Shown: positions 20,924-32,331 of the stretch, in pieces
Position numbering within the stretch: position 1 is the first letter of the stretch
How the letters are laid out: each line of letters begins with the position of its first letter
From: Methylobacterium brachythecii
Lineage (GTDB): Bacteria; Pseudomonadota; Alphaproteobacteria; Rhizobiales; Beijerinckiaceae
Assembly (NCBI RefSeq): GCF_014196345.1
Contig: NZ_JACIDN010000007.1
Span: 248,001 to 312,000, forward strand
Direction of reading: 5' to 3'
Length of the DNA stretch: 64,000 nucleotides
Position numbers and translations under genes: made by a program
The notes under the pieces: model-generated
The model's database searches: none
The model's input: the letters and a program-made list of their open reading frames with translations, nothing else
Told to the model about the DNA's origin: nothing

Positions 20924-21919
20924 GTGATTGTCCGGCCCGATCCTGCTAGCAGGGCATTCGAAGCGGGCGTGATCGACCGGGTGAGCGTGCGAAGCATCCT
21001 TTGTCTTGCCATTGCCATGGCGATGTCCATGGCGACGGGCGCGGCCCAGGCGCAGGGCGACGGCGAGACCGTCACCCAGGCCCTCTGCCGGCTGATCGAG
21101 GGTTCGGCGAAGGCGCGGTCCATCCCGGTGCCCTTCCTGACCCGCCTGATCTTCCGTGAGAGCGCCTTTCGCGTGAATGCGGTCAGCCCCGTCGGCGCAC
21201 AGGGCGTGGCGCAGTTCATGCCGGGCACGGCCAAGGAGCGGGGCCTGCTCGACCCGTTCGATCCAGAGCAGGCCATCCCGCACGCAGCGCATCTCCTGGC
21301 CGATCTCCGCACCCAGTTCGGAAATCTCGGGCTCGCCGCGGCCGCCTATAATAGCGGGGCCGGCCGGGTCTCCTCCTGGCTCGCCGGCAAGGGCGGGCTG
21401 CCCTCCGAGACCCGCGCCTACGTCATCGCGCTGACCGGCCACCCGGCCGAAGATTGGCGGCCCTCCGGCGTCGAGATGGCGCCCGCGGAAGGCGATCCGA
21501 AGGCAGCGGATGCCGCCAAGCTTGGTGCAAAGCAGCCGGACACGGCCGGCGAGGCCGCGAAAGAGGTTGAGGCGGAATCGGCCCAGACTTGCCTCCAGGT
21601 CACGGCTCTCCTGCGCATCCCCTCGCGCGGCGACCGCTTCGCCCTTCCGGTCGAGGGCGGCGTGACGGCGCCCTGGGGCATCCAGCTCGCCGGCAACTTT
21701 TCCAAATCCCTCGCGCTCGCGAGCTTCTCGCGCACCCGCTCGCGCTATGCCGGGGTGATCGGCACGGTGCGCCCGATGATCATCGGCACGCGCCTACGGT
21801 CCCGCGGAACGCGGGCCTTCTACCGAATCCGCATCCCGGCCGAGACGCGCGCGGCCGGCGAAACCCTGTGCGGTCAAATCCGGAAGGCCGGAGGCGCCTG
21901 CATCGTCCTCAGAACATGA
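20924..21919 (+). CDS. Exported lytic transglycosylase, SLT family
   Basis: A soluble lytic transglycosylase domain follows a signal peptide (ILCLAIAMAMSMATGAAQAQ). The catalytic Glu is in RLIFRESAFR; GAQGVAQFMPGTA and GLAAAAYNSGAGRVSSWLAG complete the fold. After the domain comes an acidic/Ala linker and a C-terminal region of about 100 residues ending with paired Cys (TLCGQIRKAGGACIVL), which looks like a SPOR-like peptidoglycan-binding module. The start is uncertain: GTG 20924 gives 331 residues, but GTG codons at 20969 or later would leave a more standard signal peptide. A paralogue lies at 28826-29722. Confidence 0.88.
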   Translation: MIVRPDPASRAFEAGVIDRVSVRSILCLAIAMAMSMATGAAQAQGDGETVTQALCRLIEGSAKARSIPVPFLTRLIFRESAFRVNAVSPVGAQGVAQFMPGTAKERGLLDPFDPEQAIPHAAHLLADLRTQFGNLGLAAAAYNSGAGRVSSWLAGKGGLPSETRAYVIALTGHPAEDWRPSGVEMAPAEGDPKAADAAKLGAKQPDTAGEAAKEVEAESAQTCLQVTALLRIPSRGDRFALPVEGGVTAPWGIQLAGNFSKSLALASFSRTRSRYAGVIGTVRPMIIGTRLRSRGTRAFYRIRIPAETRAAGETLCGQIRKAGGACIVLRT

Positions 21920-23475: not shown

Positions 23476-23685
23476 TCAAATCCGGCGCGTCTGAGGCTGA
23501 AAGAGCGCGGCGGACGGGCCGCCGGTGGTCGAGGCGACCGTCGCCGAGCTGGCAGCGCCCCTCGAGGAAGCCGGTCGTTCGCTGACGAACACGAAGATCA
23601 GGAACCCGACGCTCAGGAGCACGTGCGGCAGCACGAGCGGAATGCCCCAGCGGACTTTCGGTGAGGTGGTGAGAGACGGGACCAT
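23476..23685 (-). CDS. Small single-pass membrane protein, unknown
   Basis: 69 residues with one clear hydrophobic segment (about residues 13-34, WGIPLVLPHVLLSVGFLIFVFV) and a Ser/Ala-rich tail. The ATG at 23685 has GGAG 9-10 bases upstream, and the strand and orientation fit the thioesterase gene that follows, 110 bases away. I do not recognise a family. The hydrophobic segment supports a real gene, but the tail is low complexity, so it may be spurious. Confidence 0.5.
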   Translation of the reverse strand: MVPSLTTSPKVRWGIPLVLPHVLLSVGFLIFVFVSERPASSRGAASSATVASTTGGPSAALFQPQTRRI

Positions 23686-23927
23686 CGCTGCATCTCCATG
23701 GCCCGGCGAGGACGATCTCTCGGGGCGATGGTGGTGAGTCGCAGCGGCGGCGGGTGCGGTTCATCACGGATCGAGAAAAATCTGAAAGCCGCCCACTTCC
23801 GTCTCGGCATTGCTCTCACCAGTTCGCCTCGTGCCGACAGGCATGTCATCGGCGAAGTGCAGGATAATGTTCGCAGGATCGCGCTCCGCGTGGACGCGGG
23901 TTCATCCTTCGGACAAACTGCAGGCCT

Positions 23928-23993: not shown

Positions 23994-25829
23994 ATGGCGG
24001 GGCGAGCGAGAGACGGCCTATTGGTCGCGTGGGCGGCTTTGTGCACGGCCCTCGTCCTGGCACCGCTTCCCGCCGATGCGCAGTATCGCGGAACGACCGG
24101 GGGGTACGGCGGCTACGGGGGGCGCGGCGGCTACGGCGGCGGTGGTCTCGGTGGCGGCGGGATCGGCCTCGGGATCGGCGGCGCAATTCTCGGCGGAGTC
24201 GTCGGCTCGATGGGCCGTCAGCCCCCTCAGGACGTCGAAGAGGATGACGAGCCGCCGCCACGCCGTCCGGGGCGCGTGGCGGAGCCGCCCGCTCCGCAGC
24301 GACCGCCCGGCGAGCGGCCTCAACCCGTCGCGGAAAAACCGCCACGGCATCGGCCGCCTATCGCGCGCCCCTCGGAACCACCAGTCCGTATCGCCCGGCC
24401 GCTGCGTCCGGCACCAACCCGCACGGTCAAAGCACCCTTGCATGCGGTCCCGGCGCGAACCGCAGCGAAGCCGCCGCCGCGCGTGCCGGCTCGCGTGCTG
24501 CCGCCCTCGCCGGCTCCCGTGCTTGCCGCCCAGGCCGAGGAGCCCGGCATTGTCCCCGGCGAAGTGCTGATCGAACTGAAGCCAGGCGGTCCGAGCGGCG
24601 CCCTGGCGCAGCTCGCTCGCCAGCAGCGCCTCGATGCCATCGAGAGCGAGACCTTCCGGCTGGTGCCGCTCACGCTGCACCGCTATCGTATCCGCGATGG
24701 GCGCACCGTGGCCGCCGTCGTGCGGGCCTTGCAGGCCGACCCACAGGTCGCCTCGGCCCAGGGGAACCACGTCTATTCCCTGGTCGGCGACGGCGCGCCG
24801 GCTTTGCCCTTTGCAAGCGCACAATACGTCGTGGCCAAGCTTCATCTCGATGAGGCGCACCGGGCTGCGACCGGCCGCGGCGTCGCGATCGCGGTGATCG
24901 ATTCAGGGGTCGACGCGACCCATCCCGCCCTGGCGGGCGCGCTGACGGAGAATTGGGACGCCATCGCCAAGGCCGCGCTGCCGTCGGCTGGCGGCGACGC
25001 CCATGGCACCGCCGTCGCCGGCATTGCCGGGGCACGTGCCCAACTCGCGAGCGCCGCGCCCGAAGCGCGCCTCGTCGCGATACGCGCTTTCACCGGCGGT
25101 GGCGCACAGAAGCCCGGCTCACAGGGCACGACAATCCACGTCCTGCGGGCGATCGACCGGGCTGCGGCCGCCGAAGCGCGTGTGGTCAACATGAGCTTCG
25201 CCGGACCGGCCGACGCGAAACTCTCGGAGTTCCTGGCAGCCGGCACCGCAAAGGGCATCGTCTACGTGGCTGCCGCCGGCAATGCCGGCCCGAACGCGCT
25301 GCCGCTCTACCCGGCCGCGGATCCCAACGTGATCGCCGTCACCGCCACCGATGCGGAGGACAAGCTGTTCCCCGCCGCCAATCGCGGGCCGCACGTGTTC
25401 GTCGCAGCGCCCGGCGTCGAGGTGTTCGTGGCGACGCCCGGCGGCGGCTACGGCTTCCTGAGCGGCACCTCGATGGCAGCCCCGCAGGTGGCGGGCATTG
25501 CCGCCATGATGCTTCAGATCCGACCCGACCTCACCCTCGCGACCCTGCGCGACGCCCTGAGGAAGAGCGCTCACGATCTCGGCCCGGCCGGGATAGACCC
25601 GGATTTCGGCGCGGGCACGGCCGATGCGCGGGACGCGCTGCAGACCATCGGCGCCTCGTTCGCGCCGGCGATGATCAGTGATGCGAGACCGCCCCTCGGC
25701 GCGGCCAAGATCGATGCGACCGAACCTGCGAAACGGAACTCCCCGAACGGCGCCAGTCAGGCGCTCCCGGAAACGAGCGTCGTACCGACGCTGTCTGCCA
25801 CCACTACAGACGATGCTCCCGCGAAATGA
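23994..25829 (+). CDS. Exported subtilisin-like serine protease (S8)
   Basis: Protein of 611 residues. A hydrophobic signal segment (about 8-30) is followed by a Gly/Tyr-rich stretch and a glycine-zipper-like segment (GIGLGIGGAILGGVVG), then a long Pro/Arg-rich linker. An I9-like prodomain (about 205-280, GEVLIELKPGG to ASAQGNHVYSL) precedes the S8 catalytic domain with D303 (VIDSGVD), H337 (GDAHGTAVAG) and S493 (SGTSMAAPQVAG). It therefore acts outside the cytoplasm, perhaps membrane-associated through the zipper. ATG 23994 is chosen because GGAGG lies 8 bases upstream. It is followed by ECF sigma and anti-sigma genes, which suggests that it either degrades the anti-sigma factor or is a product of the regulon. 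Confidence 0.9.
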   Translation: MAGRARDGLLVAWAALCTALVLAPLPADAQYRGTTGGYGGYGGRGGYGGGGLGGGGIGLGIGGAILGGVVGSMGRQPPQDVEEDDEPPPRRPGRVAEPPAPQRPPGERPQPVAEKPPRHRPPIARPSEPPVRIARPLRPAPTRTVKAPLHAVPARTAAKPPPRVPARVLPPSPAPVLAAQAEEPGIVPGEVLIELKPGGPSGALAQLARQQRLDAIESETFRLVPLTLHRYRIRDGRTVAAVVRALQADPQVASAQGNHVYSLVGDGAPALPFASAQYVVAKLHLDEAHRAATGRGVAIAVIDSGVDATHPALAGALTENWDAIAKAALPSAGGDAHGTAVAGIAGARAQLASAAPEARLVAIRAFTGGGAQKPGSQGTTIHVLRAIDRAAAAEARVVNMSFAGPADAKLSEFLAAGTAKGIVYVAAAGNAGPNALPLYPAADPNVIAVTATDAEDKLFPAANRGPHVFVAAPGVEVFVATPGGGYGFLSGTSMAAPQVAGIAAMMLQIRPDLTLATLRDALRKSAHDLGPAGIDPDFGAGTADARDALQTIGASFAPAMISDARPPLGAAKIDATEPAKRNSPNGASQALPETSVVPTLSATTTDDAPAK

Positions 25830-25905
25830 GACCGGCCGCAGGCATCGTCCGCGTGATGATTGAACCGAACCCCCGCCTGAAGCGACCCATGAGCAGCCCG
25901 TCCGC

Positions 25906-26466
25906 ATGACCGGGGCCTCCGACGAGGCGCTGGTGACGCGGATCGCGGGCGGCGACGCGCTCGCGATGCAGAGCCTCTACGCGCGGCATTCCACACGCGT
26001 GTACCGGTTCCTCGTGCGCCTCGTCCGGGATGCCACGCAGGCAGAGGACCTGATGAGCGACGTATTCTTCGATGTCTGGCAGCAGGCCGCCCGGTTCGAG
26101 GGCCGCTCCAGCGTGACGACCTGGATGCTGGGCATCGCCCGCTTCAAGGCGCTGTCTTACCTGCGCAAGCGCCCGCACGAGGCGCTCGAGCCAGAGATTG
26201 TCGAGGCGATCGAGGACGAGGCCGACACACCCGAGATCCTGCTGCAAAAGGTCGGCAAGGCTGAGGTAATCCGTCGCTGCCTCGCCGTGCTCTCCCTGGA
26301 GCATCGCGAGGTGATCGACCTCGTCTATTACCACGAGCGCAGCGTCGAGGAGGTCGCCGAAATCACCGGCGTTCCTGCGGGAACGGTGAAGACGCGGCTC
26401 TTCCACGCCCGGAAGCGGCTCTCGGAACAGCTCAACGCCATGGGTATCGATCGGGGCTGGCCATGA
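25906..26466 (+). CDS. ECF-type RNA polymerase sigma factor
   Basis: Sigma-70 family factor of 186 residues. Region 2 spans about residues 22-90 (DLMSDVFFDVWQQAARFEGRS, TWMLGIARFKAL) and region 4 about 125-178 (LSLEHREVIDLVYYHERS, AEITGVPAGTVKTRLFHARKRL). It should direct transcription of an envelope-related regulon. Its stop overlaps the anti-sigma start (ATGA at 26463-26466), the usual translational coupling of such pairs. It lies 76 bases after the S8 protease gene on the same strand. Confidence 0.95.
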   Translation: MTGASDEALVTRIAGGDALAMQSLYARHSTRVYRFLVRLVRDATQAEDLMSDVFFDVWQQAARFEGRSSVTTWMLGIARFKALSYLRKRPHEALEPEIVEAIEDEADTPEILLQKVGKAEVIRRCLAVLSLEHREVIDLVYYHERSVEEVAEITGVPAGTVKTRLFHARKRLSEQLNAMGIDRGWP

Positions 26467-27137
26467 CCGCGCGCGAGCCAGGCGAGGACCAGACACCCGA
26501 CGAGGTCGACCTGCTGCTGCCCTGGCATGCAGTAGAGCGGCTCTCGCACGAAGAGGCCGAACAAGTCGAGGCGGCCCTGCGCGCCGACCCCGAACGCGCC
26601 CGCCATCTCGAGATCGCCCGGGAGGAGCGCGCCGAGACCGTGGCGCTGAACCAAGGGCTTGGTACGCCCTCGCGGGCAGCGCGCGACGCGCTCTTCGCGC
26701 GGATCGCAGCAGAGGGCCGAGCACCCGCCAAGGGTTTTTCGGGTCGCTGGGGCGACTGGCTGGCGAGCCTGTCGCCGCACTCGCTCGCCTGGTCCGGCGC
26801 GGCCGCAGCCCTGGTGATCGCCGTGCAGGCCGGTCTGCTGACGAAGGCCTATCTCGGCACCGCGCCGGGTGCCTACGAGACGGCATCGGCACCCTCCCCG
26901 GCATCCCAACAGGGTGTCTTCGTGCTGATCGCTTTTGCGCCGGCAGCGCCCGCTGAGCGGATCGAGGCACTTCTGCGCGAGGCCCATGCCGTCATCGTCG
27001 ACGGTCCGCTGCCCGGCGGAGTGTATCGCTTGCGGATCGGGGAGCGTGGCGAGACGGCCACCAAGACGATCGAGCGGCTGCGCTCCGAAACCACGCTCGT
27101 GCGCCTCGTCGCGCCCGTGTCGCCAGCCGTCCGCTGA
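26463..27137 (+). CDS. Membrane anti-sigma factor
   Basis: 224 residues. The N-terminal part (about 15-60, VDLLLPWHAVERLSHEEAEQV) is an anti-sigma domain without the zinc-binding HxxxCxxC motif. A single membrane segment lies at about 107-125 (WSGAAAALVIAVQAGLL). The periplasmic C-terminal domain (about 150-220) has a beta-alpha-beta-beta-alpha-beta pattern (FVLIAF, RIEALLREA, HAVIVDG, GVYRLRI, TKTIERLRS, TLVRLVAP). The ATG overlaps the sigma factor stop. It should hold the sigma factor at the membrane until a periplasmic signal, possibly the neighbouring protease, acts on the C-terminal domain. Confidence 0.88.
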   Translation: MTAREPGEDQTPDEVDLLLPWHAVERLSHEEAEQVEAALRADPERARHLEIAREERAETVALNQGLGTPSRAARDALFARIAAEGRAPAKGFSGRWGDWLASLSPHSLAWSGAAAALVIAVQAGLLTKAYLGTAPGAYETASAPSPASQQGVFVLIAFAPAAPAERIEALLREAHAVIVDGPLPGGVYRLRIGERGETATKTIERLRSETTLVRLVAPVSPAVR

Positions 27138-27170: not shown

Positions 27171-27209
27171 CCGAATGATTGCGGCCGCCCCCCGCCTGTG
27201 AGACGTTCG

Positions 27210-27224
27210 TTAACAGAAGATTAA
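27210..27224. promoter_or_regulatory. CtrA-type box 2 (TTAA-N7-TTAA)
   Basis: A second exact TTAA-N7-TTAA, 54 bases from the first (about five helix turns), ending 17 bases before the ATG. Two exact copies in a 105-base GC-rich gap are unlikely by chance. The second could overlap the promoter and repress, while the first could activate. Confidence 0.7.
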
Positions 27225-27241
27225 CGAGGTTCTCCGAAGCC

Positions 27242-27895
27242 ATGCGTACCGGCGTTTCCATGCGGATCAAGGCTTTGGTTCGTGGTCTCGTTGCGGCGTC
27301 CGCCGCGATGGCGTCGCTGGCCTCCGGTCCGCTGGCCCAGGCTCAGACCATTGCCTCGCTGCCCGCCTCCGGGCTGGCCGCCTCGATCACCGGCTCGGCG
27401 CGTCCGATCGCGGCCTGGACCGAGTTCTGCGAGCGCTACGCCAGCGAGTGCGCCGTCAACCGCAGCGAGTCCGCCTCGATCACCCTTACCCCGGCGATCT
27501 GGCAGACCATCAACACCGTGAACCGCCGCGTGAACAAGGCGATCCACGCCGTCACCGACCAGGATCACTGGAACGTCGCCGACCGCTGGGACCTCGCCGA
27601 GGACGGCCAGGGCGATTGCGAGGACTTCCAGCTGCGCAAACGCGCGATGCTCGTCGAGGCCGGCCTGCCCCGCCGCGCCATGCGCATGACCGTCGTGATC
27701 GACGAGAAGGGCGAGGGCCACGCGGTGCTCACCCTGATCACCGACCGCGGCGACCTCGTCCTCGACAACAAGACCAGCGCCGTGCTGCCCTGGCGCCAGA
27801 CCGGCTACACCTTCATTAAGCGCGAGAGCCAGGACGCGGTCGCCTGGGTCGGTCTCGGCGTCGCCATCTCGCCGACGACCACTGCCAACCGCTGA
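27242..27895 (+). CDS. Transglutaminase-like cysteine peptidase (C93/BTLCP, LapG-like family)
   Basis: Exported protein of 217 residues. After a signal peptide (RIKALVRGLVAASAAMASL...LAQAQ) the catalytic triad of the family is visible: C126 in GDCEDFQLRK, H160 in GHAVLT and D175 in LVLDN. The family includes LapG, the periplasmic protease that frees RTX adhesins from the cell surface, but rhizobial members are numerous and mostly uncharacterised. No LapD-type receptor gene is in the window. Two CtrA-type boxes precede it. ATG 27242 is chosen over GTG/ATG alternatives; the ribosome site (CGAGG) is weak. Confidence 0.88.
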   Translation: MRTGVSMRIKALVRGLVAASAAMASLASGPLAQAQTIASLPASGLAASITGSARPIAAWTEFCERYASECAVNRSESASITLTPAIWQTINTVNRRVNKAIHAVTDQDHWNVADRWDLAEDGQGDCEDFQLRKRAMLVEAGLPRRAMRMTVVIDEKGEGHAVLTLITDRGDLVLDNKTSAVLPWRQTGYTFIKRESQDAVAWVGLGVAISPTTTANR

Positions 27896-28825: not shown

Positions 28826-29722
28826 CTAATATGTTTTTTGAACCAAACATGTTGGGCATAAACTCAACTCTGCAGCCGTTCGCGTCGACCGGTAGGACGC
28901 CTTGGTCGAGCGCCTTGCGGACGCCGAATCTGCGACCACATCCGTCGCGACTTTGGACGTCGAGCCCGTCAGCGATGCGAGCAACTCCAGTTCCCAGTTC
29001 TTGAGCTTGATGGTCTGAGCTTTCTTCGGGACGCTTGCACCATGAGCAAAGTGCACCTTGGTCGTGAGAAGGCGCGCTCCCGGGGGGGCCCATTCTTCGG
29101 CAGTGCGGCCCGTAATGGCGATGACATAACTGCGGGTTTCGAGAGGCAAAGTACCAATGCCTGCAAGCCAGCTCGAGACGCGTTGGGGGCCCGCATTGTA
29201 GGCCGCTGCGGCCAGCCCGATATTGCCGAATTGCTTCCTGAGATCACTGAGGAAGGCTGCCGATTTCGGAAGAGCCTCGACCGGATCGAAGGGATCCTTG
29301 AGGCCGCGCAAGGTCGCGGTGCCCGGCATGAATTGCGCAACGCCCTGGGCTCCGGCACGGCTGACGGCGCGATGGTTGAACCCGCTCTCCTGCTTGATCA
29401 GCCGCAGGAAGTAATCGACCGGAAGCGCGTGCGCGGTGGCGGCGTCTCTGGCCAGTCGCTGCATCTCAGCCTTGTCGGTCGCGGGCCCATCGGGCGGATT
29501 GTTCAGGGACGTGCGATGCAGGGCCTTGAGCACGAGAGGCATCGTGGTGCCTTCGCGGAACTGCTCGGTCAGGACCTCCCTGGCTGTGTCACGATCGGCG
29601 CCGTTCGACGGAGAATGAGGTTGCGCGGCCACGGCCGTGCAGAGCACCGCGCCCCAGAGGGCGCCAAACAAGATGCGCCTGGATACGGTCACGCTATGCA
29701 TATTCGGAATGAGCGAGAACAT
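28826..29722 (-). CDS. Exported lytic transglycosylase, SLT family (second copy)
   Basis: 298 residues. A signal peptide (about 8-33) and an N-terminal helical region precede an SLT domain at about 95-215: catalytic Glu in RLIKQESGFNHR, GAQGVAQFMPGTA and GLAAAAYNAGPQRVSSWLAG. The domain closely resembles that at 20924-21919, but the C-terminal tail is different and Ser/Thr-rich, ending in a Cys pair (SLCPTCLV). It is the divergent neighbour of a small exported protein and lies close to the curli operon. ATG 29722 or 29701 could be used. Confidence 0.88.
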   Translation of the reverse strand: MFSLIPNMHSVTVSRRILFGALWGAVLCTAVAAQPHSPSNGADRDTAREVLTEQFREGTTMPLVLKALHRTSLNNPPDGPATDKAEMQRLARDAATAHALPVDYFLRLIKQESGFNHRAVSRAGAQGVAQFMPGTATLRGLKDPFDPVEALPKSAAFLSDLRKQFGNIGLAAAAYNAGPQRVSSWLAGIGTLPLETRSYVIAITGRTAEEWAPPGARLLTTKVHFAHGASVPKKAQTIKLKNWELELLASLTGSTSKVATDVVADSASARRSTKASYRSTRTAAELSLCPTCLVQKTY

Positions 29723-30139: not shown

Positions 30140-31066
30140 TCAACCTTTGCTGGAGAGGGTGTCTGGAACCTGGGAGAAAGCGCCGGGCGGCGCCGGGGTC
30201 ACCACGAAGTCGACAGCTCGCCGCTGCTCGTCGAGCGCACGCAAGAAGGCTTCACCGGCGACGACGTCGCGGAATTTCCAGAGCTTGTTCCGAGCGCCTT
30301 CGAAGATCAGCGAGTAGACGGCGAGTTGCACGCCCTCACGCACGGCGAGTGTCGTCGGTGAGTTCTTGGTGAAGCCAGCCTCGGCCTGCAGCAACTGGTC
30401 GACCGCCGCGAATTTGAACGCAGTTCCGTTGACCAGGATCGAGTAGATCGTCTTGGTGGTCGTCACCGAAGCGAGGACACGTCCGGTCTGGACGCTGACC
30501 GCGCGAAGGGCGACGGTGACGATGTCCTGGCGATACTGGGTATTGCCGCCGATGCCGAGATAGTTGGCGCCGATCCCGCCCGTGGTCTCGTTGGAATCGT
30601 AACCGATGATGCCGCCCTGCAGGGCGATGCCCGCGAAGCGCAGCGGCGGCAGGCCGGCGGCTTTCTCGCCCTGGACGGCCGTTCGGGTGTTCTGGATGAT
30701 CTGCCGCTCCTGCAGGAGCGAGGCGAGTTCGTTGCGCTCGACGACGTTGAACCAGCGGCCTGCGCCGGCCTTGACCAGCACGTCCGTCAGGATCGCCGCG
30801 CCGCCCTGGGTGGTGGCACGCGAGAACTCCGCGAAATTGTCGTTCGGCTTGTTCTGCCCGGTCAGGTCCGGAAAGCTGTAGACGGCGACGTCGAGAGCTT
30901 GAACGGGCGGCGGAAGCTTGTCGAGGATGACGCCCGACTTGGTTTCGGGCACGAGCGTCGCAGGCTGCGTTGCGGGGTCCAGGACCGTCCCCGTCGCGGC
31001 GATGCACCCACTCAGGGCAAAGCAGAAGATTGCTGCCACGGCAGCGCGTGCCATCACCGTCATCAT
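30140..31066 (-). CDS. csgG: Curli secretion channel lipoprotein
   Basis: CsgG forms the nonameric outer-membrane pore that exports curli subunits. The protein has 308 residues; the lipobox LSGC is at residues 18-21 after a short signal peptide. The CsgG-family core follows: LDVAVYSFPDLTGQ, AGRWFNVVERNELASLLQERQII, LRFAGIALQGGIIGYDSNET and YRQDIVTVALRAVSVQTGRVL. The start is the first of two tandem ATG codons near 31066, after a G-run; a TTG at 31168 would add an unrelated leader overlapping csgF. It is the last gene of the curli operon here, 49 bases after csgF. Confidence 0.95.
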   Translation of the reverse strand: MMTVMARAAVAAIFCFALSGCIAATGTVLDPATQPATLVPETKSGVILDKLPPPVQALDVAVYSFPDLTGQNKPNDNFAEFSRATTQGGAAILTDVLVKAGAGRWFNVVERNELASLLQERQIIQNTRTAVQGEKAAGLPPLRFAGIALQGGIIGYDSNETTGGIGANYLGIGGNTQYRQDIVTVALRAVSVQTGRVLASVTTTKTIYSILVNGTAFKFAAVDQLLQAEAGFTKNSPTTLAVREGVQLAVYSLIFEGARNKLWKFRDVVAGEAFLRALDEQRRAVDFVVTPAPPGAFSQVPDTLSSKG

Positions 31067-31115
31067 GTCGAGCCCCCCTGAAACCTTCTTGTCTTCTTGA
31101 CCGAGCGGCGTTGGC

Positions 31116-31400
31116 TCAGGGATTGGTCGGGATGGTCGTTCCGTTGATGATGATCGTAGGCGTCGCAACGCTCGTGGAGTCGCCGAGCTTGCTCAGGGCC
31201 GCGTTGAGGCCGGACAGGTCGGGGGAGTTCTGCCCCGATTTGGCGCCGTACCCTTGAGCCTGCGCTGTCGAGAGGAGGAAGGTGCCATTCAGCGCGTTGC
31301 CGCCGAAGGTCGGGCTGACCGGCCGGTAGACCTGCTCGGTGGCCGAAGCGGGGATGACGCCTCCGAGGAGGCCGGCGAGAGCTAATGCCGAAAGTTTCAT
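31116..31400 (-). CDS. csgF: Curli assembly protein CsgF
   Basis: CsgF sits on the outer face of the CsgG pore and passes fibre subunits to the nucleator. The protein has 94 residues, against about 138 in E. coli, so it is short. After the signal peptide (LALAGLLGGVIPASA) comes the diagnostic N-terminal segment YRPVSPTFGGNALNGTFLLS followed by TAQAQ, which in E. coli inserts into the CsgG channel. AGGAG lies about 8 bases before the ATG. It sits between the CsgB-like gene (44 bases) and csgG (49 bases). Confidence 0.93.
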   Translation of the reverse strand: MKLSALALAGLLGGVIPASATEQVYRPVSPTFGGNALNGTFLLSTAQAQGYGAKSGQNSPDLSGLNAALSKLGDSTSVATPTIIINGTTIPTNP

Positions 31401-31444
31401 TCCCCAACTCCTATACTTATTTATGGCATCTTGCGCTCTGCTTA

Positions 31445-31960
31445 TTAACGCTTGATCAATAGGCCTCCATTCGGAAGGCGTGCGATCAACATATTAATCG
31501 GAGCAGAACCCTGAGGCTGGATTACACCGACATTTAAGCCTTGGGTTCCCAGTAGCACGACGTTCGAGCGAAGATTGTCACCAGCTTGCAACACGCCGGC
31601 TCGATTGCGGCTTCCGATCATTCCGACCGTAGATTCATTGTTGAAACCTGCCTGCACGTGCAGAGCTTGATTGTTGATCCCGACCTGCAACGTCTGCGCG
31701 AGGTTGTGCCCGGACCCGCGCATGGCGGCCATTTCGGGCGTCTGTGGAGGGGTATAGGCCGTCGGCGTGCGCGAGACGGCCGGCGCCGGCGGGGCGTTCA
31801 GCAGCGTCGCGGCGGCTTGAAGCGGCACCGCGGTCCCGCTCGCCATCTGTGGAATATACGCCGACTCGGCGCGCGCGATGGACGGTGACAGCGCGACCAG
31901 GGCGGCCAGCGCGAATGAGGCCCGGAGGGCCTTGGCACGTGAAGTCACGGAGATTGGCAT
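31445..31960 (-). CDS. Short curlin-repeat protein, CsgB-like
   Basis: 171 residues with a signal peptide (about 9-32, ending ARA), a Pro/Ala-rich spacer and a C-terminal half with four to five degenerate curlin repeats: TLQVGINNQALHVQ, STVGMIGSRNRAGVLQ and SNVVLLGTQGLNVGVIQPQ. The small number and poor regularity of repeats fit a nucleator (CsgB) rather than the main fibre subunit, but that is inferred. The start at 31960 has AAGGAAG upstream and lies inside the end of csgH (16-base overlap), so the two are translationally linked. Confidence 0.85.
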   Translation of the reverse strand: MPISVTSRAKALRASFALAALVALSPSIARAESAYIPQMASGTAVPLQAAATLLNAPPAPAVSRTPTAYTPPQTPEMAAMRGSGHNLAQTLQVGINNQALHVQAGFNNESTVGMIGSRNRAGVLQAGDNLRSNVVLLGTQGLNVGVIQPQGSAPINMLIARLPNGGLLIKR

Positions 31961-32331
31961 GACGTGCTTCCTTGATCCCATTCCAGAATCAGCTTGGCTT
32001 CGTAGTGACCGCGCGCAGAGCCATCCAAGGCTAGGCTCGAGAGGGTCGTCTCGGTGCCGGAGGTCAGCGAGAAGTCACCGCTCTGGACGTTCTGGCTGGT
32101 TCCGGTCTCACTTCGTTTGAGGACGAAGAGCCGGTACCGGCCTTGGAGATCCGCATCGGATCGGGCGACGGCCTGGAGGCGAAGGAGGCCTGCGGCCGAG
32201 TCGGAGCGGATCTGACACGACACGCCCATGACTGGATCCTTCGGAGGGGCAGCGGGCGTCAGGGCCGCGGCGGTCCCCAGGCTGCCGGCGAAACCGGCGA
32301 GGGCCACGATCGACGAGAGAGAGCGGCGCAT
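31945..32331 (-). CDS. csgH: Curli amyloid inhibitor chaperone CsgH
   Basis: 128 residues: a signal peptide (about 1-23) and a single immunoglobulin-like domain with VSCQIRSDSAAGLLRLQAVARS, GRYRLFVLKRSE, NVQSGDFSLTSG and a C-terminal Cys. This is the alphaproteobacterial counterpart of CsgC, a periplasmic chaperone that stops curlin from forming amyloid before export. Its location between the large curlin and the CsgB-like gene, overlapping the latter by 16 bases, supports the call. The two Cys residues could form a disulfide. Confidence 0.88.
   Translation of the reverse strand: MRRSLSSIVALAGFAGSLGTAAALTPAAPPKDPVMGVSCQIRSDSAAGLLRLQAVARSDADLQGRYRLFVLKRSETGTSQNVQSGDFSLTSGTETTLSSLALDGSARGHYEAKLILEWDQGSTSCQSP

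Follow-up and report, generated by a model that had tools for sequence, protein, structure and literature searches.

Why does a transmembrane anti-sigma factor, encoded in one cluster with an exported subtilase, carry a domain that looks like a subtilase prodomain? The question arises from a 64,000-nucleotide stretch of the Methylobacterium brachythecii genome (contig NZ_JACIDN010000007.1, hereafter the window), for which an earlier note had described genes for an S8 protease, an extracytoplasmic function (ECF) sigma factor and an anti-sigma factor, and had suggested that the protease might bind and cut the anti-sigma domain, or be held by it. All three genes are co-directional and lie where the note had placed them, each with matching domains (Table 1).

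Table 1. Features of the cluster, in positions of the window
Feature	Position	Strand	Description
Putative 69-aa single-TM protein gene	23476..23685	-	Behind divergent promoter
Second exact promoter-motif copy	23738..23763	-	Divergent, upstream of S8 gene
S8 subtilase gene, 611 aa	23994..25829	+	Order: signal peptide, Gly-/Pro-rich region, prodomain, catalytic domain
S8 signal peptide, aa 1-29			Cleavage between PADA and QY, assigned by eye
S8 prodomain, aa 187-263	24552..24782	+	Pfam PF22148 (Fervidolysin_NPro-like), 4.4e-5, match over aa 176-258; model E-H-E-E-H-H-E
S8 catalytic domain	24873..25616	+	Pfam PF00082 (Peptidase_S8), 1.7e-43, aa 294-541
Predicted autoregulated ECF promoter	25861..25886	+	TGAACCGAACCCCCGCCTGAAGCGAC; 19 nt before sigma start codon
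ECF sigma factor gene, 186 aa	25906..26466	+	Pfam Sigma70_r2, 2.2e-16; r4_2, 4.2e-14
Anti-sigma factor gene, 224 aa	26463..27137	+	4-nt overlap with sigma gene
Anti-sigma cytoplasmic domain, aa 1-86	26463..26720	+	NCBIfam NF052375, weak match (1.5e-6, aa 18-135); LLPW motif
Single transmembrane segment, aa 108-131	26784..26855	+	Hydropathy
Linker motif YETAS, aa 138-142	26874..26888	+	Candidate site-1 cleavage site; [YF]xT[AL][STG] conservation
Prodomain-like periplasmic domain, aa 152-219	26916..27119	+	Sequence profiles, predicted fold

The catalytic residues Asp303, His337 and Ser493 of the subtilase and its oxyanion residue Asn430 could all be located, and its prodomain ends in NHVYSL, the stretch that should enter the active site. 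It is the only S8 protease encoded in the 5.4 Mb genome, which also encodes an M50 peptidase (site-2 protease; 1.5e-66). The LLPW motif of the cytoplasmic anti-sigma domain is conserved across the family (alignment A1), and the anti-sigma factor of one gammaproteobacterial member matches zf-HC2; the C-terminal part beyond the membrane segment presumably faces the periplasm. At this locus the nearest named relative is M. gnaphalii. The anti-sigma gene is followed by a BTLCP cysteine proteinase-like gene (PF06035, 8e-59; 27179-27895, + strand), and two similar lytic-transglycosylase-like proteins sharing a GAQGVAQFMPGTA motif flank the cluster (20924-21919, + strand; 28826-29722, - strand). Nearby, at 30140-31981 on the - strand, lies what by eye resembles a curli-type export cluster, with CsgG-like, CsgF-like and repeat proteins.

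Taken alone, the anti-sigma factor of the window gave no Pfam match and no useful sequence match in the PDB. We therefore collected its family, and the prodomain signal appears only at that level. With profiles of the family, members were found in 134 of the 397 genomes sampled from the order and in 25 of 385 from the class; a domain-only profile found them in 37 of 398 genomes across the phylum. A handful of the lowest-scoring matches are spurious or represent generic anti-sigma factors, and four loci (L184, L187, L266 and L284) were removed as false positives. One profile scan of genome contigs matched M. gnaphalii only, and a scan of viral contigs for the family found nothing.

When the domains of 65 family members were scanned singly against 24,736 Pfam models, 24 matched PF22148, the Fervidolysin prodomain (best 1e-9), far ahead of every other Pfam family; these comprised 15 of the 41 alphaproteobacterial domains (best 4.8e-5) and nine of the 24 others (best 1e-9). 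A SPOR identity was dropped, as the same scan gave four weak matches with a best value of 0.027. Aligned with hhalign to S8 prodomains, the anti-sigma domains scored 34-37 (Prob 91, E about 1e-6), compared with 9.2 +/- 1.7 and a maximum of 14.3 for 200 column-permuted profiles and 12.7 for a reversed profile. Against the prodomains of the neighboring proteases, profile-profile E values were 1.1e-6 and 3.2e-7. The alignment is colinear, with YRLRI of the anti-sigma factor in register with HRYRI of the prodomain, and in a window-by-window scan of the S8 alignment the domain matched prodomain windows only. The resemblance proposed in the note thus stands far above both permuted and other-region controls, and is explained by homology: the periplasmic domain is, judged from these profiles, almost certainly a sequence homologue of S8 subtilase prodomains. 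As it sits at the C-terminus of the anti-sigma factor, and is not followed by an S8 catalytic domain within one polypeptide, we class it as a prodomain homologue and not as a prodomain. A search of solved structures with the domain profile retrieved no prodomain.

The note had also read the same order of strand, helix, strand, strand, helix and strand in the two domains, and had named different predicted folds as the outcome that would speak against it. In AlphaFold models built from two-row alignments of the window and M. gnaphalii sequences, both domains are predicted to have this order: E6-12 H18-27 E30-37 E41-46 H51-62 E67-73 for the anti-sigma domain (mean pLDDT 79), a ferredoxin-like beta-alpha-beta-beta-alpha-beta fold, and E9-14 H20-29 E32-40 E45-52 H58-67 H69-72 E78-83 for the S8 prodomain (mean pLDDT 76). 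Foldseek with the anti-sigma model returned the PC1/3 (furin/PC1) prodomain (9fid) and prosubtilisin (3cnq_P) intermixed with further ferredoxin-like folds, whereas the S8 prodomain model gave generic matches and no prodomain in its top 50. The models are consistent with prodomain kinship, yet unspecific among ferredoxin-like folds; since Foldseek fails to discriminate within this class, the claim of homology rests on the sequence profiles.

The family keeps close company with subtilases. The surroundings of 118 proteobacterial members were read, and for 102 of these an S8 protease gene lies no more than about 4 kb away, although members are mutually related and these counts are not independent events. 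Nine members were listed as protease-less, two of them at contig ends and one (L188) with a caspase relative; a nearby protease was not found for six of the 118 (L127, L137, L248, L252, L253 and L278), and an adjacent ECF match was absent too at L137, L248 and L252. In a sample of 61 related genomes, 47 carry S8 genes, in one to seven copies each, and wherever a genome contains a strong family member, an S8 gene lies next to it. The trio occurs in two gene orders, S8-ECF-anti and ECF-anti-S8, and their adjacency, conserved in both, makes it very likely that the protease and the anti-sigma factor encoded with it are functionally linked. Conservation of the trio excludes a chance neighborhood. 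At one locus (L024, 1540-2915) the S8 gene of the trio is split over two overlapping frames, by a frameshift or a sequencing error.

Between membrane segment and domain, the motif [YF]xT[AL][STG] occurs in 68 of 110 members outside the caspase loci described below, compared with a mean of 1.0 and a maximum of 6 for shuffled linkers; in the other 42 the strict motif is missing or altered. It lies a median of nine residues from the membrane segment. It is absent from the linkers of eight anti-sigma factors without the prodomain-like domain, one of which has a match elsewhere. As a candidate cut site, this conserved motif is preferable to the prodomain-like domain itself. In subtilases, the prodomain tail occupies the active site and blocks the substrate (PMC10580911), contributing to inhibition without always being essential for it (PMC10580911). 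Most alphaproteobacterial anti-sigma factors of the family are devoid of most of this active-site tail: beyond the strand-4 proline column, a median of two residues remains in alphaproteobacteria and six in the window, with more in gammaproteobacteria.

At six loci, all from non-alphaproteobacterial genomes (L180, L182, L185, L188, L249 and L262), a caspase-like C14 peptidase replaces the S8 protease, and two of these (L180 and L185) encode two prodomain-like anti-sigma-like proteins each. The domains of four caspase loci (alignment A6) clearly belong to the same family (E 5e-14). The prodomain-like domain therefore has some function independent of S8, and it cannot be only an S8-binding mimic. 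This swap is the strongest counter-evidence to the switch model set out below, and argues against strictly S8-specific docking. The linkers differ as well: [YF]xT[AL][STG] is found in none of the eight caspase-locus linkers, and [TM]RG[AG] in five. Metacaspase-type enzymes cleave after Arg or Lys, so the Arg-Gly linkers, small as the numbers are, fit a cut site that changes with the protease. We tentatively suggest, as a proposal somewhat more likely to be wrong than right, a protease-swappable site-1 module consisting of a captured prodomain and a linker cut site matched to the adjacent protease. On such a reading the linker would spell out the identity of the protease, with YxT[AL]S-type sequences in subtilase units and Arg-Gly in caspase units.

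A generic GGAAC/CGT promoter pattern failed, and TGAACC-N15-GCGWC emerged instead; in 43 of 114 loci this motif immediately precedes the sigma gene, compared with 48 copies over 1.87 Mb of other sequence, a number that may include genuine targets. The conserved promoter is probably read by the ECF sigma factor of the same locus. Proteins like the 69-residue one of the window, together with the promoter site, are also found in M. gnaphalii (L015) and at L087. A genome-wide regulon was not resolvable, with 19 exact sites compared with nine for the reversed control, most within coding sequence. At four loci (L103, L113, L117 and L119), the motif precedes divergent genes for large exported proteins of about 680-1070 residues, which share a TGF[SP]G start and in two cases have Cys-rich C-terminal repeats; similar Cys repeats (CPRGYRGRYPDCKR) are seen in the N-terminal region of the S8 protein at L021.

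These observations can be assembled into a model of a self-contained envelope signaling unit, whose membrane-spanning anti-sigma factor has taken over a subtilase prodomain as its periplasmic part. The exported S8 protease, once freed of its own prodomain, would dock on the prodomain-like domain of the anti-sigma factor and, acting as a site-1 protease, cut the linker at [YF]xT[AL][STG], about nine residues outside the membrane; RseP, the site-2 protease, would next process what remains in the membrane and so release the sigma factor to switch on its own operon and exported proteins. We propose that in most members, whose domain has no C-terminal tail to plug it, the active site would be left open for cutting the linker. 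The linker runs into strand 1, the beginning of which neighbors the end of strand 4 in a ferredoxin-like sheet, and would thereby be brought near the active site. The docking, cutting and release steps are all inferred, and our confidence in them differs. Direct action of the protease on the anti-sigma factor is likely, and the linker motif is marginally favored as the cut site; docking through the prodomain-like surface could equally well prove right or wrong, and the chain as a whole, from docking to activation of the operon, falls just short of even.

The most serious rival is one in which the domain, though of prodomain ancestry, is now a gate or sensor for some other ligand, and the linker is cut by whichever protease is encoded, S8 or caspase, without prodomain-like protease binding. 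It would explain why one and the same domain persists next to proteases of two unrelated families, whereas the linker motif changes. In other S8-linked pairs of ECF and anti-sigma factors, moreover, the periplasmic domain is an unrelated one (CRxY...ACRxxDGxW) and the prodomain-like domain is missing (L138, L141 and L144, at least one of whose genomes also carries the main trio). We nevertheless regard it as fairly unlikely, in that it would make a coincidence of the 102 members of 118 that lie beside an S8 protease, the very family whose prodomain the domain resembles.

An inhibitor, chaperone or tether that captures free S8 would signal through release or saturation of the domain and not through cutting of the linker by S8. 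Such a role has precedent, since prodomains and the stand-alone proteins POIA1, yeast proteinase B inhibitor 2 and the malaria SUB1 propeptide-like protein inhibit subtilases (PMC10580911, PMC6993865), and the six-residue tail in the window has sufficient length to extend toward the active site. Most members, however, lack these tail residues (median 2), and both the conserved linker motif and the caspase swap would be left unexplained; we consider this role unlikely. The protease might, finally, be an output of the sigma factor only and never act on the anti-sigma factor; it could, for instance, process proteins that the regulon exports. The promoter motif does also precede genes for large exported proteins, which are possible substrates, and the ECF-anti-S8 order would co-transcribe the protease with the sigma gene. 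In the window, however, the sigma promoter lies 3' of the S8 gene, and neither the prodomain homology inside the anti-sigma factor nor the protease-dependent linker motif would be accounted for, which makes a pure output role quite improbable.

RseA, DegS and RseP constitute a system of regulated intramembrane proteolysis, and the present unit is similar in having a single-TM anti-sigma factor with a periplasmic domain, and an M50 site-2 protease encoded in the genome. It differs in that a dedicated adjacent S8 or caspase-like protease takes the place of DegS, and in that the periplasmic domain is prodomain-like. The domain shares with PF22148, whose fold is related to Inhibitor_I9, both the profile match and the predicted fold; unlike PF22148 prodomains, it is carried by a transmembrane anti-sigma factor, not at a protease N-terminus, and is mostly devoid of the C-terminal tail. 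Like POIA1, yeast proteinase B inhibitor 2 and the malaria SUB1 propeptide-like protein, it is a prodomain-type domain apart from its protease (PMC10580911, PMC6993865), but in contrast to soluble inhibitors of the POIA1 type it forms part of an anti-sigma factor and has a single protease as its conserved neighbor. Subtilase or CHAT genes have been described near ECF54 and other ECF groups (PMC8999054), and the linkage of an ECF gene to a subtilase or caspase-like protein is common to those groups and ours; ECF54, however, is reported to function in the absence of an anti-sigma factor (PMC8999054), whereas one is always present here. ECF sigma factors, membrane anti-sigma factors, regulated proteolysis and prodomain-like inhibitors are thus all known. 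The literature searched was mostly open-access and did not include the main ECF classification paper; within it we came across neither an account of an anti-sigma factor with a prodomain homologue, nor an experiment on binding or cleavage of such a factor by the protease, nor a record of a defined trigger for this ECF family.

If the model is correct, a subtilase, or in some cases a relative of caspases, would serve many proteobacteria as a dedicated site-1 protease that reads a prodomain homologue in the anti-sigma factor, and a new use would be added to those of protease prodomains. The model would also supply exact residues to test (YETAS, S493 and the domain surface) and a reporter promoter.
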